Of a stretch of 64,000 nucleotides of DNA, positions 4,618 to 47,100 are shown piece by piece. The notes below the pieces were generated by a model, which ran no database searches, was not told the DNA's origin, and worked only from the letters and a program-made list of their open reading frames with translations. The translations under genes and the position numbers were made by a program. How positions within the stretch are numbered: position 1 is the first letter of the stretch; every line of letters begins with the position of its first letter. This DNA comes from a virus: the IMG/VR virus record IMGVR_UViG_3300042309_002320, positions 1-64,000 of that record; one strand, 5' to 3'.

Positions 4618-7600
4618 ATGTCAACTCCTCCAATTTATTCTATCTTAGGAAACTGTAATAGCGCTAATTATAGTAAGAACGGAAATGCTTCCTCGGATTG
4701 GAATAATGAAAATGGTAATGTTACCAGCGTTGGCAGCAATGGTAATGATAGTTTTTTTGGCACTTATGATCAAAACGGTAATGTTTATGAAATTATAGAC
4801 TATCAACCATCGTCATTTTTTATTCAGTTATATGGAGGTAGTTATTCTTCTTTAACAGCAAATGATTCTATTGATAGTTCTTTAAGTTTAAGAAGAGACG
4901 ATGTTGGATTTAGAGTATGCGCTAATAGTGGAACAACAACAGCGTTTGATTCTATTACAGTTTCTGGTACAGGCAATAATAACGATACTAATGGAATTGG
5001 TCAAGTAAATTACAATTATAAAATTGGTAAATTTACTATTACAAATACTCAATATGTAGAATTTTTAAACGCTGTTGCTAATAGTGGATCGCCCGCATTA
5101 ATACAAACTAGTGTTTGGCCTTTTCAACGACTAATGCAGGATTCTAATCGTGGAGGAATAATAGTAAACGGCTTTAGCCCAAATATGTCTTATTCTGTAA
5201 AAACGAATTTTGCAGATAAACCAGTTAATTACGTTACTTGGTATAATGCGGCTAGATATATTAATTGGTTACATAACGGAAAACCAAATTCGTCTACTTT
5301 ATCATTAAATTCTACAGAAAATGGTGTTTATTATCTTAATTTTGAAAATAATGTTACAACTATACCAACCATAATAAATAATAAAAATACATATTGGCTA
5401 CCAGATAGAAATGAATGGTATAAAGCGGCCTACTATACATTAGATAAAAATGGCTCAGGTTCCGGATATTGGTTATATGCTACGCAATATGATACTGCTC
5501 CAGATTCAATTGTTTCTAATAGTAGTGGCGTTGCCAACAATACAGTAACAACACCGGACATTTGTATTAGCCCAACACCTACCCCCAGCGTTACTCCTAC
5601 TTATTCTCCTACTCCTTCTTTAACGGCTAGTCCTACTCTTACTCCAACTAAAACAGCAACAAGCACCCCAACAGTCACATCTTCTGTAACAACCACTCCA
5701 ACACTAACACCAACCAAAACGCCAACAGCCACCATAACTCAAACAAGAACACCTAATTTAACTGTTAGTCCAACAAAAACACCTACACGTACTCCAACAA
5801 GGACACCAAGTTTAACACCATCAACAACAGAAACACGTACTCCAACACCTACAGTTACCAGTTCTTCGACGGTAACCCCTACTCCGAGTAAGAGTCTTTG
5901 CTCTTCTATAACAGTTGGAGAACTAATTTATAATCCTATTTATACTAATGAAAATATTAGAATAATTTATAAAGGTTTTACATTTGAATCCTTTATTAAC
6001 AATAGACAATTACTAGTCAATGGCGGTCAATTAGGAAATGCCGATATAAATATTGGACTACAAGAAATTCCTAATGCTAGTCAAACCCCAACTCCTACAT
6101 TAACGCCAACCAATACTAGTACTCCAACCATCACACCAACAAATACTTCCACAACTACTAGTACTCCAACTGTTAGCCCAACACAAACAAACACAGCTTC
6201 TGTAACACCAACTAATTCTATTACTCCAACAGTTACAATTACTTCAACAGCGACACCGACACCTAGTATAACCGCAAGTCAAACTCCAACACCGTCTATA
6301 ACGCCAACACTTACACCAACAACAACAGTTACAAATACAGTAACATCAACAGCAACTCCCACTGTAACTAGCTCAAACACAACAACTCCAACTAATACTC
6401 CAACTAACACAGCAACTCCTACAAACACACCAACATTTACTCCATCTTCAACAACAACTCCTACTGTTACTCCAACAGTGACAGTAACCCCAACACCACT
6501 AGCATTTGCTCCATTATCAAATAGTATAAATTATGCTAATTCCGGTAATTGGAATGGATCTGTTTCTGGTAATCTAACAACGGTAGGAACAAATGGAGGT
6601 CCAAGTTTTTATGGAACATATGATCAAAATGGAAATATTTCTGAAATAGCTTTAAGTGTTGTTAATAATACTGATTTAATTTTCAGTATCGGTGGTAATT
6701 TTGAAACTGCAACAGGAGATCTAAGATTATTAGAAAATATAAATGAAAATACTTTGGATAAAAATATAGGTTTTAGAATTGTTACCACAGGCAATCCTCT
6801 TAACTTGCCTTATTTCATAGATATTGTTGATAGTGGAAATAGTGCAGATACTAATGGGGTTGGATCTGTTAATTATAATTATAAGATAAGTCAATATACA
6901 ATAACTAACTGTGATTATATACAATTCTTAAATGCTGTTTCTACACAGAGCGATACTAATGATACTTATAATGTTCAAATGTCTGGCGATCCATATGGTG
7001 GTATTATAAGAAGCACAGGATCAGCACCATATACTTATACTTTAAAAACTAATTTTGATAATAAACCAATTAATTTTCTTAATATAAAAAGCATGATGAG
7101 ATATTGTAATTGGTTACATAATGGTAAACCAATAGGAATACAAGATTTCAGTACAACAGAAGAAGGTGCATATATATTAGATCCGATTGGTATAACTCCA
7201 CAAGTAAGTTTAATTGCAAGCAATGGTGCAAAATATACACTACCAACATTAAACGAATGGTATAAAGCTGCTTATTATAATCCAAGAAAAAATGGATGGG
7301 GTAATGGCGGATATTGGACCTATGCTACACAAAGTGATAGTTTACCAGATAGAATTTGCTCTAGCGCTAGTGGAGATGGTAGATTAATTATCAGTAATGT
7401 TTGTTCAAACACAGAAGGTAATTCTTCTACTATCCTTTGTACGTTTACCCCTACTCCAAGCGTAACTCCTACCAATACCCCAACAACAACAATTACTAGA
7501 ACCCCTACTAATACTCCTACTAATACTCCTAGTCTAACTCGAACAATAACTCCGACAACAACCCTATCTCTAACACCAACATCTACTTTAACTCCAACAC

Positions 7601-9684
7601 AAACTATAACAAATACACCAACATCAACTATTGGCGGTACTCCAACAGTAACTCCTACATTAACATCAACTCCTACGAATACTCCTTCTGTAACTGTTAG
7701 TCCGACATCAAGTGCTACGCCAACAATCACACCAACTACTACTACAACTCCAACAACAACAATTATTGTAACTCCAACAACAACCCCAACGGTTACTCCT
7801 ACAGAAACTCCAACCGTTACTCCAACAACAACCCCAACAGTTACTCCCACAACAACGATTACTCCAACTGTTACTATAACACAAACACCAACAACAACTC
7901 CAACCGTTACTCCAACAGAAACTCCAACCCTTACTCCTACAGAAACGCCAACTGTTACACCGACGCTCACCTCTACACCAACAGAAACACCAACACCAAC
8001 AGTAACACCGACACCAACAGCTACAGAGGGTTTAACACCAACTCCTACCCCATCTGTAACAGAAACCCCAACAGTTACTCCAACAGAAACACCAACAACA
8101 ACCCCAACAGTTACTCCAACAGAAACACCAACAACAACCCCAACAGTTACTCCAACAGAAACACCAACAACAACCCCAACAGTTACTCCAACAGAAACAC
8201 CAACAACAACCCCAACAGTTACTCCCACAGAAACCCCAACCGTTACTCCGACAACAACCCCAACTGTTACTCCCACAACAACGATTACTCCAACTGTTAC
8301 TATAACACAAACATCAACAACAACACCAACAACCACGCCAACAATTACACAAACCATTACTCCTTCTTCGACACCAATAGCCGGATGGATTCAAAGAGGT
8401 GTAGATATTGATGGCGAGGCAGCTAATGATTACAGTGGAAGTAGTGTTGCTATGAATAATGATGGTACCGTAGTAGCAATAGGAGCATATAGCAACGATG
8501 GAAATGGAACAGACAGTGGACATACTAGAATATATGCTTGGAACGGAACCTCTTGGATTCAAAGAGGAAATGATATTGATGGTGAAGCAGCTTTTGATAC
8601 AAGTGGATACAGTGTTAGTCTCAATAATGATGGAGATATAGTAGCAATCGGAGCAAATGGAAATAATGGTAACGGGACCGATAGCGGAAGCGTAAGAGTA
8701 TATGTTTGGAATGGTTCAGTATGGACTCAACGAGGAAGTGATATTGATGGAGAAGCAACCAATGATGCTAGTGGTATTAGCGTTTCTTTAAATAGCGACG
8801 GCACCGTACTAGCAATAGGAGCGTCTTTAAATGATGGTAATGGAACCGATAGCGGTCATGTACGAGTATATAATTGGAATGGTTCAGCATGGACACAACG
8901 AGGAAGCGATATTGATGGAGAAGCGGCAAGTGATTATAGTGGACAAAGCGTTAGCTTAAATGATAATGGAGATATATTAGCTATTGGAGCATATGGTAAT
9001 GATAGTAATGGAAATAATAGCGGTCATGTACGAGTATATTCTTGGAATGGCTCAGTATGGACTCAAAGAGGAAACGATATTGATGGTGAATCAGCTAACG
9101 ATGCTAGTGGTTTTAATATTAGTATTAATAGTGATGGTACTATACTAGCGATAGGAGCAGGTGGAAATAGCGATAATGGAACAGCTAGCGGCCATACCAG
9201 AGTGTATGTTTGGAATGGTACTTCTTGGGTTCAAAGAGGAAGCGATATTGATGGAGTAGCAGCAAATGATAATAGTGGTCTTAGTGTATCATTAAATAAT
9301 GATGGTAGCATATTAGCTATTGGATCGCCATATAATGACACAAACGGTACCAATAGTGGACATGTACGAGTATATTCTTGGAATGGTAGTTCTTGGACGC
9401 AAGTTGGCGATAATATTAATGGAGAAACATCTTTAAATTATAGTGGAATTAGTGTTCATCTTAATGGAGATGGTACAATATTAACTATCGGAGCCTCTGG
9501 TAATAGTGATAATGGAGCTAGTAGTGGTAGTGTACGAGTATATAGATTAATTGGTATCTCTTTTACGCCCACGCCAACAAAAACCTTAACACCCACACCA
9601 ACTAAAACACCAACAACAACACCAACAGTAACTCCTTCAAAAACAGCATATTATTCAGGCCAACAATATAATTTTATTCCATAA
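4618..9684 (+). CDS. Giant modular fibre/adhesin: two permuted FGE-like domains and a propeller
   Basis: The 1688-residue protein is built from modules. FGE-like module 1 is at about residues 15-310 and a Thr/Pro-rich linker at 318-425. A small domain follows at 426-490, then a second linker at 490-628. FGE-like module 2 is at 631-940 and a third linker at 941-1254. Seven 56-residue repeats occupy 1257-1648, with a final Thr/Pro tail. The FGE-like motifs include [34 protein letters not shown] and [13 protein letters not shown], but the GTYDQNGN and GFR half comes before them, the reverse of the normal order. FGE folds are C-type-lectin-like and often bind ligands, and no catalytic Cys pair is seen, so receptor binding is more likely than enzyme activity. 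There is no signal peptide. The gene abuts the 9697 gene, another modular protein. I infer a virion fibre or host-surface adhesin. Confidence 0.75.
7795..7887 (+). repeat. 93-base direct repeat, copy A, in Thr/Pro linker
   Basis: This stretch and 8221-8313 are almost the same sequence with only a few base differences. Both encode a [16 protein letters not shown]-type segment ending in [11 protein letters not shown]. The mismatches are mostly at third codon positions, which suggests an older duplication within the third linker of the fibre gene. Confidence 0.75.
8077..8220 (+). repeat. Four perfect 36-base tandem repeats
   Basis: Four identical copies of a 36-base unit begin at 8077, 8113, 8149 and 8185. 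Each encodes the 12 residues [12 protein letters not shown] in the third Thr/Pro linker. The lack of third-position drift implies recent expansion or ongoing gain and loss of units, which would change the linker length. Confidence 0.9.
8221..8313 (+). repeat. 93-base direct repeat, copy B
   Basis: Partner of 7795-7887. It directly follows the four 36-base tandem units, so the linker has grown by at least two kinds of duplication. Confidence 0.75.
8386..9561 (+). repeat. Seven 168-base repeats encoding a likely seven-bladed propeller
   Basis: Seven consecutive units of exactly 56 codons each run from the Trp codon at 8386 to 9561. The consensus has [12 protein letters not shown], then [18 protein letters not shown], then [15 protein letters not shown]. 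Seven equal units of this size fit one closed seven-bladed beta-propeller of the FG-GAP/kelch-like kind, with the DxDG and NDxNG stretches as possible calcium sites. A related but more divergent repeat region is found in the minus-strand gene at 57908-64000. Confidence 0.85.
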
Positions 9685-23984: not shown

Positions 23985-25110
23985 TCAGCAACAACTAAAA
24001 GTATTGTCCGATTATTTATGCGAAGATATAGATAATCTATTAGATAGTCTAAATATCACAGACTATAAAATATTTGATCGTATGATTGCCATGAGATGTC
24101 CTATACACGGAGGAGATAACAACTCTGCGTGTAACTTATATTATAAAGGGGACTCATACAGGGGAAACTGGAAGTGTCGTACTCATCAATGCGAAGAAAC
24201 ATTCAAAGGATCTATCATTGGTTTTATTAGAGGCTGTTTGTCTAAACAAAATGGATGGACAGGACCAGGAGATTCGACAGTATCTTTTAATGATGCTGTT
24301 GAATATGCAATAAAGTTTAGTAAGAAAAATCCTGATAATATTAAAGTCAATAAAAAAGAGGTTGAAAAAAATAATTTTGTTAATGTTATCAATCATATAC
24401 AGTCTGATATAAGACTAAAAGATGAATCACCAAAGGTGTCAAGAGCCACTATTATTAAAAATCTAGATATTCCATCACAATACTTTTTGGATAGAGGATT
24501 TTCAAGAGATATATTAATCAAATATGATGTTGGAGAATGCACCAGTCGTGAAAAAGAAATGTTCCAAAGGGCAGTTGTTCCTGTTTATGACGATTCTCAC
24601 TCACATATGGTAGGATGTTCTGGAAGAAGTCTGTTCGACTCCTGCGAAAAATGTAAGGGCTATCATAGTTTAGACGCATTATGTCCAAAAGATGACTATT
24701 TATGGCAATACTCTAAATGGAAGCATAATAAGGGATTTAAGACTCAAGAATATCTATATAATTTATGGTATGCGAAAGACTATATACAACAAAGTAAAAG
24801 TATAATTCTTGTAGAAAGTCCCGGCAATGTATGGAGACTTGAAGAGGCAGGAATACATAATAGCGTAGCCCTATTCGGATCTGTGCTACAAGACAAACAA
24901 AAACTATTATTGGATATATCCGGGGCTATGAGTATATATATGTTAATGGATAATGATGAAGCTGGCAAAAAAGCATCAGAAAAAATTTATGATAAATGTT
25001 CGAAAACATATAATGTCTATAAAATAGATATTGATCATCCTGATGTTGCCGAGATGACCGTCTCAGAAGTAAAAGAAATTATTTCACCACAAATACGAGA
25101 TAAGTACTAA
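23941..25110 (+). CDS. DnaG-type primase (zinc finger plus Toprim)
   Basis: The product has about 389 residues. AAGGA at 23926-23930 supports ATG 23941, but TTG 23935 or ATG 23953/23956 cannot be excluded. The N-terminal part has a CHC2-like zinc finger: CPIHGG, then WKCRTHQCEETFKG. The Toprim domain shows ILVESPGNVWRLEEAG with the catalytic Glu and MLMDNDEAGKKA with the DxDxxG motif. It would make RNA primers together with the DnaB-like helicase. A second Cys group (CEKC and C in LDALCPKD) in the middle may bind another metal. The protein is shorter than bacterial DnaG and lacks its C-terminal helicase-binding domain. Confidence 0.82.
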   Translation: MTRTMMTIKKSRSYNQQQLKVLSDYLCEDIDNLLDSLNITDYKIFDRMIAMRCPIHGGDNNSACNLYYKGDSYRGNWKCRTHQCEETFKGSIIGFIRGCLSKQNGWTGPGDSTVSFNDAVEYAIKFSKKNPDNIKVNKKEVEKNNFVNVINHIQSDIRLKDESPKVSRATIIKNLDIPSQYFLDRGFSRDILIKYDVGECTSREKEMFQRAVVPVYDDSHSHMVGCSGRSLFDSCEKCKGYHSLDALCPKDDYLWQYSKWKHNKGFKTQEYLYNLWYAKDYIQQSKSIILVESPGNVWRLEEAGIHNSVALFGSVLQDKQKLLLDISGAMSIYMLMDNDEAGKKASEKIYDKCSKTYNVYKIDIDHPDVAEMTVSEVKEIISPQIRDKY

Positions 25111-25703
25111 TGAATACCAAAATTATAGCATTTTCTGGACGTAAACAGTCTGGCAAAACTATTTGTTCAGAATTTTTAAAAGGATTATTATTATCTAATG
25201 GATATTCTGATGTTGAAATATATAACTTTGCAGACCCATTGAAAGAAGACATATGCATGAACATGTTTGGATTATCATATGCTCAGTGTTATGGCGAAGA
25301 TCATAATAAGAATGAACTAGTTGATGCCTATTGGGAAGATAAGCAACTAACAGCACGAGATTTAATGCAATTAATAGGCACGGACTTATTTAGAAAATTA
25401 AATAATAATATTTGGGTAAATGCTCTTATCAATAAAATTAAAAAGAGTAAACTTCAAGTTGTTATAGTTTCTGATTGTAGATTTCCTAATGAAATAGAAG
25501 CTATAAAAAATAATGGAGGAATAGTATTTCGACTAAATAGAAATCCACACAAATCAGAACATATTAGCGAATCAATATTGGATGCTTGCAGATATGATTG
25601 GAATAATTTTAATGCTATCATTAATAATGAACATATGACAGTTAGAGAGCAATATGATAAACTTAAAAAACTTATGTTACATTTTAATGTACTACCACAA
25701 TAA
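25110..25703 (+). CDS. Deoxynucleoside monophosphate kinase
   Basis: The 197-residue protein has a Walker A loop, GRKQSGKT, at residues 10-17, and resembles phage dNMP kinases such as T4 gp1. Similar features are FADPLKEDI, the LMQLIGTDLFR segment and VIVSDCRFPNEIEAI with the acidic strand. It would phosphorylate dNMPs to dNDPs with ATP, linking dCMP deaminase products to the dNTP pool. Its start overlaps the primase stop by one base, and it lies nine bases before the Cas4-like gene. Confidence 0.8.
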   Translation: MNTKIIAFSGRKQSGKTICSEFLKGLLLSNGYSDVEIYNFADPLKEDICMNMFGLSYAQCYGEDHNKNELVDAYWEDKQLTARDLMQLIGTDLFRKLNNNIWVNALINKIKKSKLQVVIVSDCRFPNEIEAIKNNGGIVFRLNRNPHKSEHISESILDACRYDWNNFNAIINNEHMTVREQYDKLKKLMLHFNVLPQ

Positions 25704-25712
25704 TAGGATATC

Positions 25713-27701
25713 ATGATTATAACTTATTTCCGTAGTTCGTCTTATAATGCCCATTCTATGTGCGAACAACAATATTTTTTTGAATATGTACTAGGATGGA
25801 GGGGCCCAAGTGGACAAAAGGCGGATAAAGGAACAATAGTCCATAAAGTTTTAGAAATTCTTGCCATGATCAAACAAGGTCAGCAAGATAAATTATCTCA
25901 TATAAATGATGACGAATTCTTAGGTCTTATAGATATAAATGACTATAGTCTTAATACCATAATAGAAAAAGTATACAAGCATTATAGTACCGCTAATAGT
26001 CATCATACTTGGACTCTAAAAGATTATAAGGACTGCTATAATTGGGTTTACAAGGCTATAGAATTTAATGGCGGTATGTTTGATCCTAGAAATCGCACCA
26101 TTCTTAGACCAGAACAACACTTTGATTTGGTAATAGAAAAACCATGGGCTAAATACGAGTATAATATTAATAATCAAAAACTAGATGGATATTTGGGCTT
26201 AAAAGGCACTATAGATCTTATAACTTTGGCTAATGATAATACTATTGAGGTCATAGATTGGAAAGGATTGCCATTAGATACAAAATTACCTACTCTTGAC
26301 GGATGGACAACAATTGCAGATATAAATGTGGGATGTAATGTCTTTGATCAATACGGTAATATATGTCGCGTTGTTGGAAAATCAAAAGTCAAAACAAAAA
26401 AATGTTTCAGAGTAACTTTTGATGACAAAACATCGGTAATTTGTGACGATGAGCATTTATGGAAATTATCTAATGGTGAAACGGTATCTATACAGGATCT
26501 AGTTATTGGCGATACTATTAATGTGACAAAACCATTAAAATGTAATGAACAATCCCTACCAATAGATCCTTATCTATTAGGAGTCTGGTTAGGAGACGGA
26601 AGAAATAGAGGCTGCGAGATTAGTGGCAATGATACTGAAATTTTTGAAGAAATACAAGCAAGAGGTTATGAGCTAGGAAAAATTCAAAATGATAAAAGAT
26701 CAAAAAATAAGACAGTATCGATCCTAAATGTGACAAAAATACTAAAATCTTTAAATCTATTGAATAATAAACATATACCAAAAATTTATTTGAGAGCATC
26801 TTTTCAACAAAGGCTAGACTTACTAAGGGGTTTGATGGATACAGACGGAAATGTAAATCCAATTAGAAAACAAACTGTGTTTACTTCTTGTAATAAAAAA
26901 CTATCCGACGATGTTAAAGACCTACTTTTAACCCTTGGGCAAAGACCGAATCAAGCGTGTATTAAAAGAGATACAAATTACAAAAAAAACGTAATCATAT
27001 ATCCTATTTCGTTTCGTCCAATTGACATTAATCCTTTTCTATTGAGCAGGAAAAAAGAACTTGTGGATGTAAATTGGGGATCTGGAAGATCTAGGGTTAG
27101 ACGAGTTTCTAAAATAGAAGAATCGATTATACAAAAAACTCAATGCATTTCCGTAGACAGTCCAGACAATACTTATCTGTGTACAGAAAATTATATTCCA
27201 ACACATAATACTGGACGAAGACTAGATTGGGCAACAGGACAAGAAAAAACACAAGAAAAATTAGAAAAAGATCCTCAACTCAAAATCTATCATTATGCTA
27301 TTAAAAAACTGTATCCTCATATAGAGAATGTTATTTTTTCCATATATTTTATTAATGATGGTGGTCCTTTTTCTATGGTTTTTCATGATAGCGATCTTGC
27401 CGATACTGAAAATATGTTACGTCAAAAATTTGAAATCATTAAACAAACTAAACGACCACGATTGAATAAAAGTTGGATGTGTAATAAATTATGTCATTTT
27501 GGTAAGACTACATTTGCTAATACTAATATTGAGCCATTGAAAGAGTATAGGGATGGACAAATATGTCAAAAAGATTCGATCATGACAAAATGTGAACAAG
27601 TGAAGCACGACCTTGAACTTTACGGGATCGATGCTACAATGAGTATGTACAAGCACCCGAATCATTCTTTTGGATCCTACAAAGCACCCGGAACCGTATG
27701 A
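25713..27701 (+). CDS. Cas4/RecB-like PD-(D/E)XK exonuclease containing an intein
   Basis: The frame encodes 662 residues. Residues 1-184 and 500-662 are the nuclease; 185-499 are the intein (separate entry). After splicing the host protein has 347 residues. Nuclease motifs are GTIVHKVLE (the RecB-type His), LKGTIDLI (first Asp), and IEVIDWK joined to TGRRLDW after splicing, which restores the VIDWKTG active-site motif. Cys17 and the C-terminal cysteines in MCNKLCHFG plus later ones could form an iron-sulfur site, as in Cas4 and AddB. It probably acts as an exonuclease in recombination or end processing. There is no adjacent CRISPR array or cas gene. It overlaps the polymerase gene by four bases. 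Confidence 0.85.
   Translation: MIITYFRSSSYNAHSMCEQQYFFEYVLGWRGPSGQKADKGTIVHKVLEILAMIKQGQQDKLSHINDDEFLGLIDINDYSLNTIIEKVYKHYSTANSHHTWTLKDYKDCYNWVYKAIEFNGGMFDPRNRTILRPEQHFDLVIEKPWAKYEYNINNQKLDGYLGLKGTIDLITLANDNTIEVIDWKGLPLDTKLPTLDGWTTIADINVGCNVFDQYGNICRVVGKSKVKTKKCFRVTFDDKTSVICDDEHLWKLSNGETVSIQDLVIGDTINVTKPLKCNEQSLPIDPYLLGVWLGDGRNRGCEISGNDTEIFEEIQARGYELGKIQNDKRSKNKTVSILNVTKILKSLNLLNNKHIPKIYLRASFQQRLDLLRGLMDTDGNVNPIRKQTVFTSCNKKLSDDVKDLLLTLGQRPNQACIKRDTNYKKNVIIYPISFRPIDINPFLLSRKKELVDVNWGSGRSRVRRVSKIEESIIQKTQCISVDSPDNTYLCTENYIPTHNTGRRLDWATGQEKTQEKLEKDPQLKIYHYAIKKLYPHIENVIFSIYFINDGGPFSMVFHDSDLADTENMLRQKFEIIKQTKRPRLNKSWMCNKLCHFGKTTFANTNIEPLKEYRDGQICQKDSIMTKCEQVKHDLELYGIDATMSMYKHPNHSFGSYKAPGTV
26265..27209 (+). 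mobile_element. Intein with LAGLIDADG endonuclease and class 3 (Trp-Cys-Thr) signature
   Basis: The element is 315 residues in frame within the nuclease, ending in His-Asn before a Thr (+1). Block A reads LPLDTKLPTLDGWTTIADI but its first residue is Gly, not Cys or Ser. Block B (ICDDEHLWKL) has Trp two residues after His; block F (TQCISVDSPDNTYL) has Cys at the usual Asp position; block G ends PTHN with Thr before His-Asn. These three residues form the Trp-Cys-Thr set known from class 3 inteins, which start splicing from the block F Cys. A homing endonuclease domain is present with both LAGLIDADG motifs, YLLGVWLGDG and LLRGLMDTDG. The insertion point directly follows the catalytic Lys of the host enzyme. 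Confidence 0.88.
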
Positions 27702-29566
27702 CTTATTCAGTACTACATTGTCATTCTCATTTTTCATTATTGGATGGCTTAAATAGACCAGAGCAAATTGCCACCAGATGTGCCAAACTGGGCATAAAAT
27801 CATGCGCCTTAACAGATCATGGTAATATTGCTGGATCGGTACAGTTTTATCAGAAAATGAGATCTAAGAATATTAAACCTATTCTTGGATGCGAATTATA
27901 TATTTGTGAAGATGATCCATCAATACAAACAAAAGAGAATGCTTCCTTGTCGCATTTTCTCGTACTTGCTAAAAATTTAAAAGGCTGGAAAACACTCATC
28001 AAAATAGTCTCGGAATCAAATAGGCCAGATTATTTTTACCATAAGCCAAGACTAAGTATCAAAAAATTATCAGAATTACTAGATGGTAACATAATAGGTG
28101 TTTGTGGTCATTTGGGATCGACCCTATCGGATATTATCTTAAAAGATCAGGATAATAGTATTTCTAATGGTCTTTCTTTTATAGACAATATGAAAACTAT
28201 ATTCGGTGATAATAATTTTTATTTGGAAACACAATTATTCGATAAAGACTATCTAAAAGAACAAGTCTATTTAACAGAAACGATTAGGCGACTATCCGAA
28301 TTAAGTAAAATTAAGGCAGTATCTACTCCCGATGCTCATTATTGCGAACAAGACGACGCTATAGACCAAAGGATTCTTCTTTGCAATAATTTAAAAACAA
28401 CACTATCTGATATTAATACTAAATTAATTAATAATCAAAGTATTCCTATGGAGTGCTTCTTTAAAAGTGATAAATATTATATCCTATCTCCAGAAGAGAT
28501 GACGAACCTACATAGTCCACAGGAAATAGAAAATACAATTTTTGTCGATAGCTTAATAGAAGAGTTCGACATCTTATCTGCTCCAAAATTGCCTAATTTT
28601 GATTGTCCAGAAAACTATGATCCTGATGAATTTTTAAGGGAATTGTGTAGAGTTGGATGGAAAAATAAAATCATTCCAAATATTCCAAAGGATGATCATC
28701 AAGTTTATGTAGATAGAATAAAATATGAGTTAGATATATTACAAGGTGCTAGTTTATCTAGTTATTTTTTAATTGTGCAAGATATAGTCAACCATGTTAG
28801 ACATAATAACTGGCTACCTGGACCGGGCAGAGGAAGTGGGGCTGGGTGTCTGGTTTCTTACCTTGTTGGTATCACAGATATTGATCCCATGAAATATGAT
28901 TTATTATTCGAAAGATTTTATAATGCTGGTAGAAATACTAAAGATAGAATCTCTATGCCAGATATTGATATAGATATTCCAATCGATAAACGCGAACAAG
29001 TATTAGAATACATAAAAAATAAATATGGACACAGTAAAGTATCTCAAATGATTACTTTTAATACTATGAAAGGTAGAGGGGCACTAAAAGACGTATTGCG
29101 AGTATATGGTAATATTAGTTTCGAAGAGATGAATACTATTACTAAGTTTATTCCTGACGAAGCTAAGATAGCGGACGAGCTTCAAGAAATGAAAGAAGAT
29201 ACTGGAGAAGCATCTATTATCAGATGGGCTCTAGAAAATAATACGGATAAACTAAAAGAATGGTGCTATATATCTGAAGAGGACGGGACTTTATCTGGGC
29301 CTCTATCTAAAAGATTTGAACAGGCAATAAGATTGGAGGGAACAAAATCTAATCAAAGCAAACATGCTGCTGGTGTAATAATAGGTACTCAAGACCTTGC
29401 GTCTTTATGCCCGATGGTCTATGATAACAGAAATGATCAGCTTATCGCTGGCATGGAGATGAACGATCTAGAGAGTTTGGGTCTAATAAAATTTGACATA
29501 TTGGGTATCGCATATTTGGATAAAATTATGTCAGTATCAGAATATTTAAAACACGGAGAACTATAA
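27698..29566 (+). CDS. DNA polymerase III alpha, N-terminal part (PHP and palm)
   Basis: The 622-residue protein starts with a PHP domain (HCHSHFSLLDG, ALTDHGN, GCELYI, STPDAHY) that keeps its metal residues. The polymerase palm follows with PGPGRGSGAGC and the two catalytic Asp residues in MPDIDIDI at about residue 425. The third catalytic Asp is in IKFDILGI near residue 602. It ends with a normal stop just after this point, where an intact DnaE would continue with the fingers. The rest is encoded by 30445-32058, so the active enzyme must form from two chains; together they total about 1159 residues, close to E. coli DnaE. No split-intein sequence is seen at its end. It overlaps the Cas4-like gene by four bases. 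Confidence 0.9.
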   Translation: MTYSVLHCHSHFSLLDGLNRPEQIATRCAKLGIKSCALTDHGNIAGSVQFYQKMRSKNIKPILGCELYICEDDPSIQTKENASLSHFLVLAKNLKGWKTLIKIVSESNRPDYFYHKPRLSIKKLSELLDGNIIGVCGHLGSTLSDIILKDQDNSISNGLSFIDNMKTIFGDNNFYLETQLFDKDYLKEQVYLTETIRRLSELSKIKAVSTPDAHYCEQDDAIDQRILLCNNLKTTLSDINTKLINNQSIPMECFFKSDKYYILSPEEMTNLHSPQEIENTIFVDSLIEEFDILSAPKLPNFDCPENYDPDEFLRELCRVGWKNKIIPNIPKDDHQVYVDRIKYELDILQGASLSSYFLIVQDIVNHVRHNNWLPGPGRGSGAGCLVSYLVGITDIDPMKYDLLFERFYNAGRNTKDRISMPDIDIDIPIDKREQVLEYIKNKYGHSKVSQMITFNTMKGRGALKDVLRVYGNISFEEMNTITKFIPDEAKIADELQEMKEDTGEASIIRWALENNTDKLKEWCYISEEDGTLSGPLSKRFEQAIRLEGTKSNQSKHAAGVIIGTQDLASLCPMVYDNRNDQLIAGMEMNDLESLGLIKFDILGIAYLDKIMSVSEYLKHGEL

Positions 29567-29749: not shown

Positions 29750-30443
29750 TTTACAAAAAATTTGTGTATTCGATTTAGAAACGGACGGGGCTAATCCCGA
29801 TATTTGTAGCCCCGTTCAAATCGCTGCTGTTATTATCGATCCTTATAAATTAGAAATAATCAAAGATTCAGAATTTAATATCAATCTAAAGCCCCAAGCA
29901 ATACAAGATAATCCAGAATATATATATGATGATTCAGATGTTCTGGATTTTCATGCCAAAGTTAGAGGATGTGATAAAACAAAAATCTTAGAAGATTGGA
30001 GATCTTTCCAGAAACAAGACAGTGGATGGAAAATGTTTGTATCATATTTGGAAAAATATCATATAAGATCTGATAAAAAATCTTGCTTTACAGCTCCTAT
30101 TGCTGCTGGCTATAATATTAATAGATTCGATCTAAGAATTATAGATAGATTAAGCATAAAATATAATAATGTCAATAAGGAGGGACGAACATCTCTATTT
30201 TATCCACGAGATGTTATTGACTTAATGAACGTTATTTTTTATTGGTTTGAAGGTAATAATGAGCTTAAAAACTATACACTTGATAATGTTAGAGAATATT
30301 TAGGATTAGGAAATAGTGGCTCTCATGATGCTCTAAATGATGTTAGGGCAACAGCTGATATTTTGATAAGGTTTATGAAATTACATAGAAATTTATCGAA
30401 TAAGGTAAAATTCAGAAACGCCTTTGCTCTTGCAAAAAATTGA
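29742..30443 (+). CDS. DnaQ-like DEDDh 3'-5' exonuclease
   Basis: I chose the ATG at 29742, four bases after GGAG at 29734-29737. The 233-residue protein has the motifs of DEDDh proofreading exonucleases: FDLETDG (Asp and Glu), AAGYNINRFDLRII (second Asp), and HDALNDVRATADIL (His and Asp). It would remove misincorporated nucleotides for the DnaE-type polymerase; its gene sits between the two polymerase halves. The length is near that of epsilon subunits, but no clear clamp-binding tail is seen. Confidence 0.87.
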   Translation: MANLQKICVFDLETDGANPDICSPVQIAAVIIDPYKLEIIKDSEFNINLKPQAIQDNPEYIYDDSDVLDFHAKVRGCDKTKILEDWRSFQKQDSGWKMFVSYLEKYHIRSDKKSCFTAPIAAGYNINRFDLRIIDRLSIKYNNVNKEGRTSLFYPRDVIDLMNVIFYWFEGNNELKNYTLDNVREYLGLGNSGSHDALNDVRATADILIRFMKLHRNLSNKVKFRNAFALAKN

Positions 30444-30444
30444 A

Positions 30445-32058
30445 ATGACTCAATATTTTACTTTTGATTGTGGATGTAAGTTCAAGGTTTTGGAATATAC
30501 CTCAGAAGGAATTCCAAAAATAGAATTTACAGGTAAGTTGAGCGATCTTAATCTTGATTGTTCAAAAACATGGTCTATGATCGGAGATGGTAATACCAAG
30601 GGTGTATTTCAACTAGAATCAAGGTTAGGTTCTAGTATGGCTAAAAAATTAAAACCAGAGAATATAGAACAACTATCTGCCCTAATTAGTATTATGAGGC
30701 CAGGATCTTTGGAAGCTTATAGAGATGGTAAAAGTATTAGTCATCATTATATAGACAAAAAGAATGGTCAAGAAAGCTTAGACTATTTTCACCCATCCCT
30801 TGAGCCATCATTAAAATCAACCTATGGAGAGATGATATATCAAGAACAGGCCATGCAAATCGCGCAAGCGGTGGCTGGTTTTGATCTACAAGAGGCAGAT
30901 ATGCTGCGTAAAGCAATTGGCAAAAAGAAGCCAGAAGAAATGGCTAAGATCAGGGTAAAGTTTAAGGATGGTGCTAAAAAACTGAATATAGTCAACGACG
31001 AAGAAATAGACGAAATATTTAGTTGGATTGAAAAAAGTCAAAGATATTCTTTTAACAAAAGCCACGCTGTGTCATATGCTATGAATGCATATTCTTCGGC
31101 TTATGCAAAAGCTCATTTTGCTAAAGTATTTTTTGCATCATACCTTAAATTTGCAAAAGATAAAATGGATCCTCAAAAAGAAATAAAAGAACTAATACGT
31201 AATGCAACAGAAATGGATGTGATTGTATGTGTTCCTGATGTAAGAAAGCTTAATAAGCATTTTACTATTAGCGATGATAAAATATATTTTGGTCTTACCG
31301 ATATTAAGGGTGTCGGTTATTCTGTTTATGATAAATTATTAACTATTATTAAAGACTTAGATATAAATAATATATCTTGGAATACATGTTTAGTTAAAGT
31401 TTTAACAAAAATTAATTCCACAGCAGCTAAAGCATTAATATCATGTGGCGCTTTAGATCATCATAATATCACCCGTACAAAAATGTTATTTGAATACGAT
31501 ATAATATCTGAATTAACTTCTAGAGAATTAGATCTATTAGACTTGGAAAAGTCGTCTATTGCACAATCTTTACATGGTTTATTGACACAAAATAAAATTA
31601 ATATTAAGCGAAAAAGTAGCATACAAAATCTTATCAATTTATATAACAATCCGCCATATTCATTAGATGATAAAATAGAATGGCTATCTGATACAGAAAA
31701 TGCTTTATTAGGGGCCTCTATAACTTGTTTTAAGATAGATTCTTATGATATTAGTATGACAAATTGTGATTGTAAAGCTTTCAAGACTACCAACGCATCA
31801 AAAAATATTATTTTAGCAGGAGAAATTAGTTCCATCAACTTTGTCAAAACAAAAAACGGCAAAAATCCTGGGGCTGAAATGGCCTTTGTCACAATAGAGG
31901 ATCAATTTGCATCACTAGACTCAGTAATATTATTTCCTGAGCAATTATCAAAATATCGTAACTATCTATTCGATGGTAATGTACTAATATTCTTAGGTAA
32001 TAAAAGTTCTAAAAAAGATTCTTTTATAGTGGAGAAATGTTTTATACCAAGATCTTGA
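30445..32058 (+). CDS. DNA polymerase III alpha, C-terminal part (fingers and OB domain)
   Basis: I start it at ATG 30445, two bases after the exonuclease stop; an upstream TTG is less likely. The 537-residue product begins with about 25 residues not clearly found in bacterial DnaE (including FDCGCKFKVLEY), then matches DnaE from NTKGVFQLESRLG through SIMRPGSLEA, YGEMIYQEQAMQIAQAVAG, ADMLRKAIGKKKPEEMAK and RYSFNKSHAVSYAM. These are the fingers with nucleotide-contacting residues. A helix-hairpin-helix-like part (DIKGVGYSVYDKL) and a C-terminal OB domain (ILAGEISSINFVKT) follow. It lacks the catalytic aspartates, which lie in 27698-29566. Confidence 0.9.
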   Translation: MTQYFTFDCGCKFKVLEYTSEGIPKIEFTGKLSDLNLDCSKTWSMIGDGNTKGVFQLESRLGSSMAKKLKPENIEQLSALISIMRPGSLEAYRDGKSISHHYIDKKNGQESLDYFHPSLEPSLKSTYGEMIYQEQAMQIAQAVAGFDLQEADMLRKAIGKKKPEEMAKIRVKFKDGAKKLNIVNDEEIDEIFSWIEKSQRYSFNKSHAVSYAMNAYSSAYAKAHFAKVFFASYLKFAKDKMDPQKEIKELIRNATEMDVIVCVPDVRKLNKHFTISDDKIYFGLTDIKGVGYSVYDKLLTIIKDLDINNISWNTCLVKVLTKINSTAAKALISCGALDHHNITRTKMLFEYDIISELTSRELDLLDLEKSSIAQSLHGLLTQNKINIKRKSSIQNLINLYNNPPYSLDDKIEWLSDTENALLGASITCFKIDSYDISMTNCDCKAFKTTNASKNIILAGEISSINFVKTKNGKNPGAEMAFVTIEDQFASLDSVILFPEQLSKYRNYLFDGNVLIFLGNKSSKKDSFIVEKCFIPRS

Positions 32059-41134: not shown

Positions 41135-44100
41135 TTATTTTTCTCTCGGTGGTGGTGTATTCGTAAAAAATTCATATGGTATCATTTCCCATAGAAACTG
41201 ACTTTTTAATATGGTGCCTTTATTTTCTATTCGATCTATTGATCCATAAAATGTTCTATACATCATCTCATTCATTAGTTGAAAAAACAATGGGGTTGTT
41301 GATGGTACTAATTTAGTATCTTCTATTTCCATACATTTCCAATAATAAATATTATTATTTAATATAGGCTGAAAAGACGAACCACTAACAGATCCCGCTT
41401 CTACTATCTCGTATGGATCCAAAATATCGCTAATTTGATTTCTTTTACCCGGTCTAAATAAACCAGTTGGACCATATCTATACACAGTACTGTAGATATC
41501 TAGTCCGCGTAATTGTCTAGGTATTTTTCTAAATTTTATTTTTAGATTATTTACATTATCTAAATTGCATACATTATATATTTTCATTGATTGACCAGCT
41601 CTAATACCTCCCAATGTTAATAGTCCAAAACCATCAACAGATTTTTGAGGAACAGAAGCCCCTATTGTTTCTCCTGGTGGAGGCAAACTAGAAACAAAAT
41701 TACCATCATCTGGTGGCGGTGGAGAAGGATCATCCGGATCACCACCTCCTACTCCACCAGGTAAATTGCCTATATCCAACACATCAGCATCCTGAGTACT
41801 ATTGGTTTTGTCTGCCTTGTTATCTTTTATTTCTAATGGGCTTAGTAATACATCATATGTTTCTATTGCTGTTACCATAATTTCTTTATAACTATTTATG
41901 GTATCCATTCCAGCAGCATTGCCATTGATATGATAATTTCTTTTTATCGTAACTTCTTCCCATTTTATAGGTAATCCTGCTGCTGTTGCTTTTTTTTCTA
42001 AATTAGTTTTATTTTTATTAACTATATTTTCTCCAATAGTATATTTATATGTTTCATATGGCCCACTTCTAAATCCACTAGTACTACCTTTGCTGTAATT
42101 TATACCATCAGGATCATCTTCTTCGTTTTCCAATATGGATCCTCGTTTATGATTACAAATATTATTTATTGCTAATTGAGGCATTCCATATATTCCTTGT
42201 ATATAATTTGCTGGTCTACAAACATATGTTATGCTTTTCAAAACTTTCGGTCTTAGCTCTTCCGCTATACTACAGCCTTGATGAGGATCCAAATTTATCC
42301 AGTAATTATCATTATCGTATTCGTACTCTATCTGAAAAGCTAAAAGAGATAATCTATCAAAAGGTCTGAATGTTTTAATTTTAGCTAAAATTTGAGGCTT
42401 AATACCATGTCTAGTTCGTTCAAAATCTCTAGTAATAGATACAATATCTTCTTTCAATATAGTATTTTCTTTAAATGTTGTAATATCATCAACCACAACG
42501 GATTCTAATACTGTAATAGATTCAATATTTTCACGAGCAATCTTTCCGGAGATAATAGATGTTTTATTTTTTATTGTTATTCTTGCTTTTTGATAATCGC
42601 TAGTTTCGTTTAATAGTTTTAGAATATCATTTCTTTCTTGATAAAAAACTCTAAGAGCTAATTCAGAGATTTTTTTATTAGAGTTATATTCTGTTAAAGA
42701 TTCATAGTGTCTATAAATATAGGATAAATTATAACTTTCAATGACTTTATTTGTGGCAACAATAGTATTTACGCCTATGTTTGATTCTACCTCTAAATTT
42801 ACATTAGTATTTTCTAATAAATTAAGCCTTGTTATTAAATTTTGAAAAACTTCATTACTTATAGGATCTCCATTAATATCTGTCGCTTCAATTGGCGGCT
42901 TCTCTTCATAATCATTTTCTATTGATATATAACCACTAGGGTACGGAACCATCGAAGAATCTCTAAAATTATTATTTCTTATATATGTTAAATGAATATT
43001 ATTAAAATCAACATTATTAAACGAAAAATATTTAGAATTACTTAATAAATTATCTAAAGTTGTTGAGTTTGCTGGATTATTTACTATATATTTACTATTA
43101 TTATCAACAACAGTAATAACATCATTCAGTTTATGGGGATAGGCTACAGAAGCACCTACATATTTTAAAGAATTAATTTGTTCACTTTGTTCTTTAGTAA
43201 AAAACATTTTATTATACAATAATCTATCTGATTTATGATTATTAAACATGTTACCAATTTTTTCAATATTATTGTACATAGGTATTTGAGATAGGATATT
43301 TTTATTTATTGTGTAAGACCCATCTCCATATGAACCATAACTATTTGTTGTATTATATACTTCCGGGTGCGGCCTATTTAATGATTCTTTTTCAAAAGCA
43401 TACATGTTCACAGGATTATTCTTTAAGTCTGTAGAGGACGATAATCCAAATACTACAATTACATTATTATCAGGACTAATAAAGTCTGCTTTATCCATAT
43501 CTAATCTATCTACTTTTAATATAGTATACGGTTTTTTATCTTTATAAATTAGTGCTTTACCTAATATTTTGGTAGTATATTTTGGAGTAGTATCCGCTGG
43601 TGCAACAGGTTGATCGGGCTGTGTCGATGTGGGTGTTACGGACGGGGTTTCTCCTGTTGGTCCATCAATAAGATTAACATCTATAATTGCATCTGGAGCA
43701 ATATTTTGACCACTAACTTGAACAATATCCTTAAAAGTAAATATCTCAAATGGTACAGTTCCGTCTATCATTATTAATTTTTTTTGATTAATATCTGAAT
43801 ACAGATTTTTAAAAATGCTATATTCGGTATCAGGTAAATCATTATATAAAACATGATTACGTGTTATATAATCTGATTTCTCACATAATATCGAAGGTTT
43901 TTGTGCTAAAGATACCCATTTACCAGTAGTCGGAACAAAATAGAGACCATCAACACAAACATTAGAGCTATCTGTAGATGAGAATCTTACATCCACAATA
44001 TCATCCGTATGATACGATATATTATTATAAGTCAATGGGCCGCTAACAGCATTAAACTCTGTGCAGCCTATGGTTAATTCTTTGATAGACTTTTCCTCTA

Positions 44101-47100
44101 GTAAATCTTTGATATTTTCAACTACTTTAACAGAAAATCTGGATAATTCTGGCAGCGTATCCTTATTTAATCTGATATAGTTATATTTTTTATATGGCAA
44201 TATAGGACTATTAGCGTATTTAAAAATAGAGGCTTCTGCTTTATACCAAAAAATATTATCTTTTGAAAAATTAATTAGTATTTTTTCTGGACTACCAAAA
44301 GGATATCGTTTGTAATCTTGATGATAAATATCATTAGCTATGGCTTGTCTAAAATCTTGAGCTCTTTGAGCATTAAAATAATTAACAATTTGTCCTACGG
44401 CTATAGACATAGCAATGTCGCCTCCTCCAAGACCCGCCATAATTCCTCCTAAACCACCAGCCCCACCAAGACCAACAGCTCCCGTATATGCGTATGTTGC
44501 AGCTAAAATAGCCAGCCATGGAAATTCTACGCCAGGAATACCCTTAATATTTCCAATGAGTTCCGGATCTGATGCTTCACAAATTGTATTATCTTGAAAA
44601 AATATATTAGGAGCATTAATATTTACAAATGGCATCATATGCTTATAGTTTTTTAAGTTTGCCATAAAACCATACCCACCATACTGGGGTGGCTTACCGT
44701 ACTCTATAAGAGATAATGCTTCATTATTTCCATATGAATTTAATGATGACAAGATTGGAGCCGTTGGTTTTTTAGTATCTCCAAAATGTAACAACAGCTC
44801 CCAACTACATAATGAACTATATAAACTACTAGAATTAATTTTATTAGTAAAATCATAAATATTTGTATATAATTGAGAATTAATAGTATTATCATTAGGC
44901 AACATATCATCATGTTCATCATATAATGTTATAGCGCAAGTAAAAAATGTGACATCGTTTTTATTAGGCCCTTTTGTTCCCTTAATCCCAGCACCACCTC
45001 TTGGTGGACAACGCACAGTAGAATCAAACATTGGTTTACCAGCATATTTACTAAATGTATTATTGGTAATGTTAAGCTTATTAGCCGTAACCGCATTATG
45101 ATAAATATTTACTTCTTGATCACTATATCCAAATGGACAAATAGATGGTTTTATAATATCATCAGTGTTAATAATATTTTGATAATTAGCAGCAACATAT
45201 CCTGAACTATTATTATAGTTATGATCGTTTACAACATTATATTTATTGGCATGGTCAGAGAATTTTAAACTAAGATTAAAACTATGATTCTGAATATATT
45301 CTTGATTTAAAAGATATAAGTGAGGATTCGATGTTGGTTCTTTATATGGAACAGAGATTCCAGCAACAGATGTTTTTGTAAATCTTGTATTCATATTAGA
45401 TAAGCTATATAAATATTGAGTTAAATCAGAATTATTAATATTTATTGGATTAAGAGGCCAGTCTTGTGGAGCTGCCAAGCTATCAAAATCTGATTGTATT
45501 GTTTGATCTATAAATATTGATCCTCCAGCAATTGGTGATTTATATCTTTCACCGCCACCAATTCTATATAGTTCATCTAGACATGGTTTAGAATCAAATA
45601 CTATACTTAAATCTTTTGTGTTAACATAGTTTAGAAAATTTAGTTTAACTTCTATATCTTTAATAGAAAAATTCAATACTCTAGGATTTCTAAAGCCTTT
45701 CCATGTTCCGGTTGGATTTGGTAAGTTTTCATAATAGTTTGCTGGTTGCTCTCCATTATCTTTAATACAATTTGGATTGGATCTTCTGGCCTTACTCATA
45801 TATTTGACTATATCTTCTGGTATAGGCCCTGGAGGATATCTTGGTCCAGAAACTGGGAAAAGATATTTAAACCTATTATTTTCTGAATCACTAATGAAAC
45901 CAAATTCATCCATGAAGGGTGAAAAATTATCGTAAGATCTAGCTTCGTATCTTTTTGGATCTCCTCCTCTTAATATTCTATATCCATGATCATAGGCTTT
46001 TCCATTTGCGCTAGGTATATCTTGATCGCCGTATTCTCTATGGATTTGATTAAGCCAAACCCAGTGAGGAGGACTATCGGATCTACACGGTGTTGTTCCG
46101 CCACATTGTATGCTTTCTTGAATCCACTGAGCGCCTTCTGCTATTCCTATCTCTATTGATGATTTAAATTGTATTGGAATAATAAAAAGATTATTTCCGC
46201 TATATATATAGCTATCATTCTGAATATTGTTTATACTAGGGCCGCTAAAACTATAAGACTCTCTAGCTCCAACATTGAATTTTAAAACACTAGATAGATT
46301 CTCTATGCCGCTATGTAATGGACTATCATAAGATATCCATCCGCTTTGAGGATGAAAAACACCCTTTTTAAAATCGATATATTTATCAGAATTATCCGGT
46401 ATAATATCCTCAAAACAATATTTAAAGCCCTCTGCAAAATAAGGAGGATCCAATGATGGTTTGTCAGATTTATAATTTAATGGCTTTCCTGTGATAGCCG
46501 GAAACACAGTTCCAGGATCCGGATGATTAGGAATACTTATTCCTATATTATTAATTATTTCATTATCCCAGCCACCATATGATTTTATTTTTGGTGAAAA
46601 ATCGGTACTAAAAGTCTCATTATTTTCCTTATCAAGTGCTCCACCCCAAGATCTATAATGATAAGTATTATTTTCCCATCCATCTAGAGTAGAACCCTTT
46701 CCTCTTATCCAGTTTCCTCTTGATCCGTATAGATCTGTTGAATATAAACTAAAACAATTAGCGCATTTTGGATCAGAATGGTGTCTTATATGTTCAAGTT
46801 TTATTTTATCTAACCTATATTGAATATTAGCATCAGAAAAATATCTTAATATAATATTAGAAGATTGATCATACTTATAGGATGAGTCCGCTTTGCCATC
46901 TTTTATAGGTCCTCCATAGTAATCTTCTAAATAGTATAGCGTATTGTTAATTAATTTTTCTGGCCGACTCTTTAGAACTTTAATATCTGATGTCATGGCT
47001 ATAGGTAAAGCTAATCCTCTACCATGTATTGCTATACTATTTATAATTGGAGTATGAACTCTTAAATTTTTAGAATTTAATATAATATCATGTTTTTCTC

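Follow-up and report, generated by a model that had tools for sequence, protein, structure and literature searches.

A probable mobile class 3 intein between the catalytic Lys and a Thr of a phage PD-(D/E)XK nuclease

Known class 3 inteins and the nuclease site

Inteins have been described in the nucleases of mycobacteriophages. Specifically, the excerpted text of Kelley et al. 2016 (PMC5050341) reports inteins in the Cas4-like RecB exonucleases of 40 C1 mycobacteriophages, groups them with class 3, and places them at a single insertion point within the PD-(D/E)XK motif. An excerpt of PMC3196547 reports that a model precursor was spliced by the class 3 intein Catera Gp206, which is probably the RecB-type intein of the C1 phages, as indicated by the excerpt of Kelley's table, which cites Tori and Perler 2011. 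Sequence records locate the insertion point: the C1-type phage ArcherS7 reads VELK^S...N^TQNS and the empty gene of phage Alice reads VEMK-TQNS, so both share the same Lys^Thr point. By megablast, the ArcherS7 gene matches 190 phage records, and in 137 of them at least 80% of the gene is covered at one place. The shorter matches, at 44% coverage among the matches listed, are what empty genes would give.

Here, we analyze a 64,000-nucleotide stretch (the window) of a 101,115-bp virus record, IMGVR_UViG_3300042309_002320. We consider it very probable that the window encodes a mobile intein of class 3 that contains a LAGLIDADG endonuclease and is lodged between the catalytic Lys and a Thr of a phage PD-(D/E)XK nuclease. 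The original prediction knew of no described case in a Cas4-like nuclease. That claim gives way to the 40 C1 mycobacteriophage cases in the excerpted text (PMC5050341), to the ArcherS7–Alice pair, and to four further phage records. Thus, a class 3 intein in a Cas4/RecB-like nuclease is already known; new here is the population evidence of its movement. The known class 3 site, the Lys^Thr of PD-(D/E)XK phage nucleases, is thereby extended to an uncultivated phage group in IMG/VR contigs.

Like the C1 RecB inteins, the window's intein is class 3, has LAGLIDADG motifs (as in ArcherS7), and occupies the Lys^Thr point of the PD-(D/E)XK motif. Unlike them, it resides in an unrelated phage, shares approximately 30% intein identity with them, and starts with Gly where ArcherS7 starts with Ser. 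The four further records, those of phages Traft412, Frankenweenie, and Rollin and the gut phage contig MT835539, have the Lys^Thr nuclease site and inteins 37–43% identical to the window's; their hosts differ. The Traft412 and Frankenweenie products are annotated as Cas4-type exonucleases; that of Rollin is annotated as hypothetical and that of MT835539 carries no annotation, so the nuclease nature of these two rests on the motif. The N-terminal extein of the window's gene, compared with 50,697 phage records, yielded no match at E 1e-3.

More distant systems share parts of the design. The class 3 inteins MsmDnaB1 (6bs8) and MchDnaB1 (6rix, 6riy) possess the same Trp-Cys-Thr (WCT) motif, and 6bs8 matches in fold; unlike the window's intein, they reside in the replicative helicase DnaB, and their crystallized chains (139–146 residues) are without an endonuclease domain. 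Phage TerL-gene inteins have, in most cases, the C-terminal block F Cys and PTHN, but they interrupt a packaging ATPase at or near its P-loop. Finally, PI-SceI, the VMA intein of yeast, shares the architecture of splicing plus LAGLIDADG domains and belongs to class 1.

In a tree of 28 relatives of the window's intein, which holds no class 1 or class 2 reference, the C1 mycobacteriophage intein stands beside the TerL inteins (support 92/61), some of which bear our own labels (BK649P1 is annotated as hypothetical, and L042 was labeled from Pfam). This placement would mean two invasions of the nuclease site. An AU test does not reject a single clade of nuclease-site inteins (p 0.112), and we therefore make no claim of two invasions. 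Two variants turned up among related phage inteins. The intein in TerL of Gordonia phage YungMoney (L216) ends in PTRN, with Arg for the usual penultimate His, and in contig 3300038393_000726 (L036) and three similar contigs (L037–L039) the gene interrupted by a related intein encodes a P22-like portal protein (PF16510 in L036).

The interrupted nuclease gene

The host gene is a single open reading frame (ORF), with the following parts outside the intein.

25713..27701, + strand: intein-interrupted PD-(D/E)XK (Cas4/RecB-like) nuclease gene; 662 codons plus stop; PF12705 E 1e-12
25713..26264, + strand: N-extein, ending ...GTIDLI...EVIDWK; PF12705 match
26214-26216, 26256-26258, and 26262-26264, + strand: motif residues Asp168, Asp182, and Lys184 of the N-extein
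27210..27698, + strand: C-extein; +1 Thr at 27210-27212; QxxxY motif; three of the four cysteines, all invariant, that may form an Fe-S site

Membership in the PD-(D/E)XK group is indicated by the PDDEXK_1 model (PF12705), which matches the outer parts of the ORF above its curated cut-off (49 bits versus 22; residues 9–184 in the N-extein), and by the presence of the D...DxK...QxxxY residues. The same model matches all 17 relatives with an empty site at E 0.01 or better. When these uninterrupted nucleases are aligned, Asp168, Asp182, and Lys184 are invariant (17/17), and, in keeping with the PD-(D/E)XK fold, we take these three residues to be catalytic. Four cysteines are likewise invariant in all 17 (Cys17, 275, 279, and 312 in the numbering of relative L072); they would fit an Fe-S site. 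The NCBIfam cas4 model (TIGR00372, cut-off 65 bits) scores below its cut-off for both the window's protein (27 bits) and empty relative L072 (34 bits). This weak match makes "Cas4/RecB-like nuclease" right and "Cas4" too strong. A profile of the 17 uninterrupted nucleases, searched against solved structures, returned one row, an unrelated entry at E 1.1.

The nuclease ORF lies between a deoxynucleotide monophosphate kinase and the N-terminal half of DnaE, with a DnaB helicase and a Toprim primase upstream. DnaE (pol III alpha) itself is divided between two ORFs, at 27698-29566 (PHP and catalytic part) and 30424-32058 (finger and HHH part); a DnaQ-like RNase_T exonuclease and one small ORF separate the two. 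With the window's own intein as the query, no halves of an intein were noticed at this break. Elsewhere in the window are a long Pro/Thr-rich repeat ORF of 1,688 aa (4618-9684) and a 2,726-aa ORF on the minus strand (41135-49315).

The intein and its class 3 signature

Between the exteins, positions 26265-27209 translate to 315 stop-free residues, from GLPLDT to PTHN, in frame with the nuclease.

26265..27209, + strand: class 3 intein with LAGLIDADG homing endonuclease; 315 aa; PF14528 E 2.4e-7
26454..26462, + strand: block B, with His64 (B:10) at 26454-26456, Leu65, and Trp66 (B:12) at 26460-26462
26574..26600, + strand: LAGLIDADG motif 1, LLGVWLGDG; several residues nearly invariant among 15 aligned inteins
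26820..26849, + strand: LAGLIDADG motif 2, LLRGLMDTDG; PF14528 spans residues 183–228
27144..27146, + strand: Cys294 (F:4), proposed first nucleophile; invariant in 15/15 inteins; opposite the block F Cys in the alignment with 6bs8 and 6rix
27201..27209, + strand: block G, with Thr313 (G:5) at 27201-27203, His314, and Asn315 ending at 27209; invariant in 15/15

Judged by its sequence, the insert is a class 3 intein. Position 1 is Gly, rather than the Ser, Thr, or Cys that class 3 inteins do without, and Trp66, Cys294, Thr313, His64, and Asn315 are invariant in all 15 aligned relatives. The other splicing residues, the B:10 His, the C-terminal Asn, and a +1 nucleophile, are all present as His64, Asn315, and Thr+1. 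A single-sequence phmmer search matched the Mycobacterium smegmatis class 3 DnaB intein 6bs8 at 2e-14, and a profile built from the 15 relatives did so at 3.2e-32, the Trp, Cys, and Thr positions falling in register, so the resemblance is not due to chance. By alignment, Gly1, Trp66, Cys294, and Thr313 are in register with both crystallized class 3 inteins, 6bs8 and 6rix. The original prediction had named this signature (Gly1, DEHLW, TQCISV, PTHN, and a +1 Thr), and each element holds at its position. It had also placed the insertion directly after the catalytic Lys. The intein indeed comprises precursor residues 185–499, immediately following Lys184, the residue taken as catalytic, at VIDWK^TG, and relatives that read through this point with no gap back these boundaries.

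Structure models agree with the domain assignment. An AF2 model of the intein (pLDDT 90.8) superimposes on 6bs8 with Z 21.2 at 1.4 Å over 124 of 125 residues, and the whole intein model superimposes on PI-SceI (1ef0) with Z 26.7 at 2.9 Å over 308 residues. The endonuclease assignment draws on this fold match, on the PF14528 score, which lies above its cut-off, and on two motifs with acidic residues. The model of the full 662-aa precursor has pTM 0.51 and pLDDT below 50 at both junctions, which makes it uninformative on activity before splicing. Because the best 50 Foldseek matches to the precursor model are all intein or LAGLIDADG entries, that search gives no verdict on the nuclease fold.

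The Pfam model Intein_splicing (PF14890) has no match at E 1 in the window's record. The model appears blind to this group: at E 0.01, it matched none of 10 related intein proteins, the published type of ArcherS7 included. We therefore dropped the miss as evidence against an intein. When the window's intein was used as the query, no second intein was found in the 101,115-bp record.

Empty and occupied sites

Relatives were inspected at the exact insertion point. The site is empty (gap 0) in 119 of 211 loci, carries an insert in 70, and is incomplete in 22, a set that includes repeats of the same contigs and was not deduplicated. Counted by distinct flank pairs, 80 of 97 are empty and 17 are occupied, in a sample biased by searches that started from parts of the window itself and that, in two of three cases, took the best 80 loci. 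The empty VIDWKTG site that had been proposed as a check is found in homologs, and read-through without a gap supports the intein boundaries. In parsed carriers, the ORF is continuous through the insert, contig ends aside.

When the whole precursor was compared with plasmids, 33 records matched, none over more than 80% of its length, and the five plasmid matches listed cover the intein region only. A contig from an Alphaproteobacteria MAG (L225, whose title names Lanier) encodes the same nuclease, with an intein 99% identical to the window's. Its bin offers a weak hint at the phage host.

Two nested footprints of movement

Two patterns in the flanking DNA bear on mobility, an outer tract and an inner patch.

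25140..27238, + strand: tract shared with a different phage backbone; nine mismatches in 2,099 bp versus contig L015; 5' edge at approximately 25104-25139, 3' edge at 27239
26229..26264, + strand: 5' part of the divergent patch; 10 mismatches in 36 bp, empty L070 versus carrier L014
27210..27222, + strand: 3' part of the divergent patch; three mismatches in 13 bp, L070 versus L014

The outer tract consists of the intein, approximately 1.1 kb upstream, and approximately 30 bp downstream. Over its length, identity to L015 is 99.57%, and mismatches become dense before the 5' edge and from 27239 onward. A second contig, L013, provides the background. Its median identity to the window is 79.6% over 145 alignable 250-bp bins (36,493 of the 64,000 window bases aligned, and approximately 66 kb of the L013 contig covered), versus 95.6–100% in the eight bins from 25251 to 27001. 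Five more single bins (2251, 15001, 16001, 16501, and 17001) reach 95–97%; identity peaks therefore occur without an intein, and the tract is the strongest of several. None of the five is as long as the tract or near 99–100%. The tract is present in ten contigs of the other backbone; upstream, some of these match less well (as low as 83%, for a single 100-bp bin of L012).

Relatives with an empty site give the complementary picture. Outside the tract, 250-bp bins of empty L072 show 81–94% identity to the window; in the upstream part of the tract, its identity is 78–80%. Empty L073 is 82–92% identical up to 28750, 64–76% further down, and 75–82% in the tract. Empty L070, which has the other backbone, is 95–99% identical to the window from 25100 to 26200. 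In the simplest order, transfer would have run from the other backbone, as donor, to the window's lineage. Two contigs of this comparison have peculiarities of their own. L009 switches backbone at the intein, is either a recombinant or a misassembly, and was left out of the evidence. The start of the L015 contig (G005:C1:16-270) encodes the C-terminal part of a second intein, 39% similar, so that phage may carry another intein.

The inner patch emerges from comparing empty L070 with carrier L014. Upstream of the insertion point they differ at 41 of 3,552 bp, and the 36 bp next to that point hold 10 of these mismatches (hypergeometric p 2.7e-12, or 5.4e-9 when the background is the last 1,000 bp upstream). 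The same upstream excess appears, more weakly, against L015 (p 6.7e-10), L010 (6.4e-8), and L019 (6.4e-6). All these p values are too small, because the 36-bp stretch was chosen after the mismatches had been viewed; the cluster is nonetheless plain. The patch has the pattern expected of a short co-conversion mark, left when the intein either entered the donor type or was lost from L070. Together, outer tract and inner patch fit two nested homing events and suggest that the intein recently moved between related phages.

Carriers, selection, and endonuclease decay

Inteins and host genes were ranked by identity to the window's in 10 carriers, with the nuclease halves, DnaB, primase, kinase, and, where found, DnaE compared. 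In four (L020, L026, L030, and L032), the intein (83, 61, 58, and 60% identical, respectively) exceeds both nuclease halves and the neighboring proteins. In L021, L022, and L024, it is approximately level with the nuclease, and in L024 it lies below DnaB. The L033 intein is likewise level, and that of L041 is lower; for L014, near-identity extends over the whole nuclease.

An alternative to endonuclease-driven homing is that selection on the nuclease region, or ordinary homologous recombination, produced the shared tract. Phages recombine freely, five other bins reach 95–97% between the backbones, and the backbone switch in L009 falls at the same place, a contig that could be misassembled. We nonetheless regard this explanation as unlikely, given that no stretch in the comparison with the L013 contig is longer or more identical than the tract; that the tract ends 27–30 bp past the intein and recurs in ten contigs of the other backbone; that the inner patch lies right at the insertion point; and that intein identity exceeds that of host genes in four of the 10 carriers.

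Versus L020–L022, dN/dS is 0.06–0.24 in each part, splicing and endonuclease, although some of these comparisons come close to saturation at synonymous sites; versus L024, such sites are saturated. The near carrier L019 gives 0.40 from very few changes (dS 0.02). These sequence comparisons indicate purifying selection on both the splicing and the endonuclease domains. In L033 and L041, the nuclease-site inteins are shortened and their LAGLIDADG motifs broken, while Trp, Cys, Thr, His, and Asn are intact, as expected if the endonuclease had decayed after fixation.

Proposed splicing and homing

From the signature and fold, the empty sites, the selection, and the two nested footprints, we infer splicing, DNA cleavage, and an order of transfer. 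Translation would yield a 662-aa precursor. In it, Cys294, activated by His64 and Thr313, would attack the Lys184–Gly1 bond to form the class 3 branched thioester; a Cys-His-Thr triad of this kind is described for class 3 in an excerpt of PMC7664689. The chain would then pass to the +1 Thr, Asn315 would cyclize, and the exteins would join as VIDWK-TGRR. The excised intein, or the precursor, could cut the intein-free VIDWK^TG codons when a relative co-infects, and the break would then be repaired with the carrier as template, which would bring in the intein and flanking DNA. Given where the chain is interrupted, the unspliced nuclease is probably inactive, although it retains Lys184. Near-identical genes with and without the intein occur in nature and allow tests of homing range, co-conversion, and precursor activity.

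The interrupted active site raises the notion that splicing is conditional, for example redox-controlled through Cys294, and keeps the nuclease off until a certain stage. The insertion does split an active-site motif, and all 17 nuclease relatives retain the four cysteines suited to an Fe-S site. Moreover, excerpted reports present a mycobacterial DnaB that contains a class 3 intein as a sensor of oxidative stress (PMC6195587) and describe inhibition of N-cleavage of a class 3 intein by H2O2 (PMC7664689). We think a switch distinctly improbable: 80 of the 97 distinct flank pairs are intein-free in our biased sample, so many relatives need no such switch, and Lys184 itself is kept in the precursor.

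Less probable still, to the point that we give it little weight, is that the intein no longer splices, or uses a class 1- or class 2-like route, with the gene kept because co-infecting phages supply the nuclease. A class 3-like intein, Arsp-FB24, did fail to splice and is called a pseudogene in an excerpt of PMC3196547. That pseudogene is without His B:10 and Cys F:4, however, whereas here the signature is complete, dN/dS versus L020–L022 is well below 1, and the ORF runs through the insert in parsed carriers, contig ends aside. A mobile, splicing class 3 intein accordingly stays our preferred reading.

Lysine before class 3 inteins

In both the window's nuclease and the P-loop ATPases, the residue preceding the intein is a Lys. 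One could speculate, and we consider it doubtful, that class 3 inteins are specialists for catalytic lysines, residing at GK^T/S in the P-loops of ATPases and at DxK^T in PD-(D/E)XK nucleases, which have unrelated folds. If this is true, Lys at −1 could be a requirement of the chemistry or a built-in brake, and it could explain moves between unrelated genes. Lys at −1 in two unrelated folds is thus a testable idea on where class 3 inteins live, a hypothesis and not a rule.

In the genome_contigs collection, 89 loci encode a relative of the intein; the best 80 of these 89 were taken, and 70 were parsed. Lys occupies −1 in all 70, and +1 is Ser in 60 and Thr in 10. The search pattern, together with our own motif, partly determined +1, and that motif also set the register of residue 1. 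Many of the 70 are DnaB-like genes of related actinobacteria and hence not independent. Among the phage inteins compared, with boundaries set by analogy, Lys precedes most; the portal-gene intein of L036 and the TerL intein of phage Dove do not fit. Of the 70 parsed loci (from the best 80 of 89), 68 read GK, as in a P-loop. The other two are the L225 nuclease and a Nonomuraea fuscirosea protein (L285:1975-4335); the latter, whose exteins show no domain above a Pfam cut-off, harbors a class 3-like intein at TK^TG that is 44% identical to the window's.
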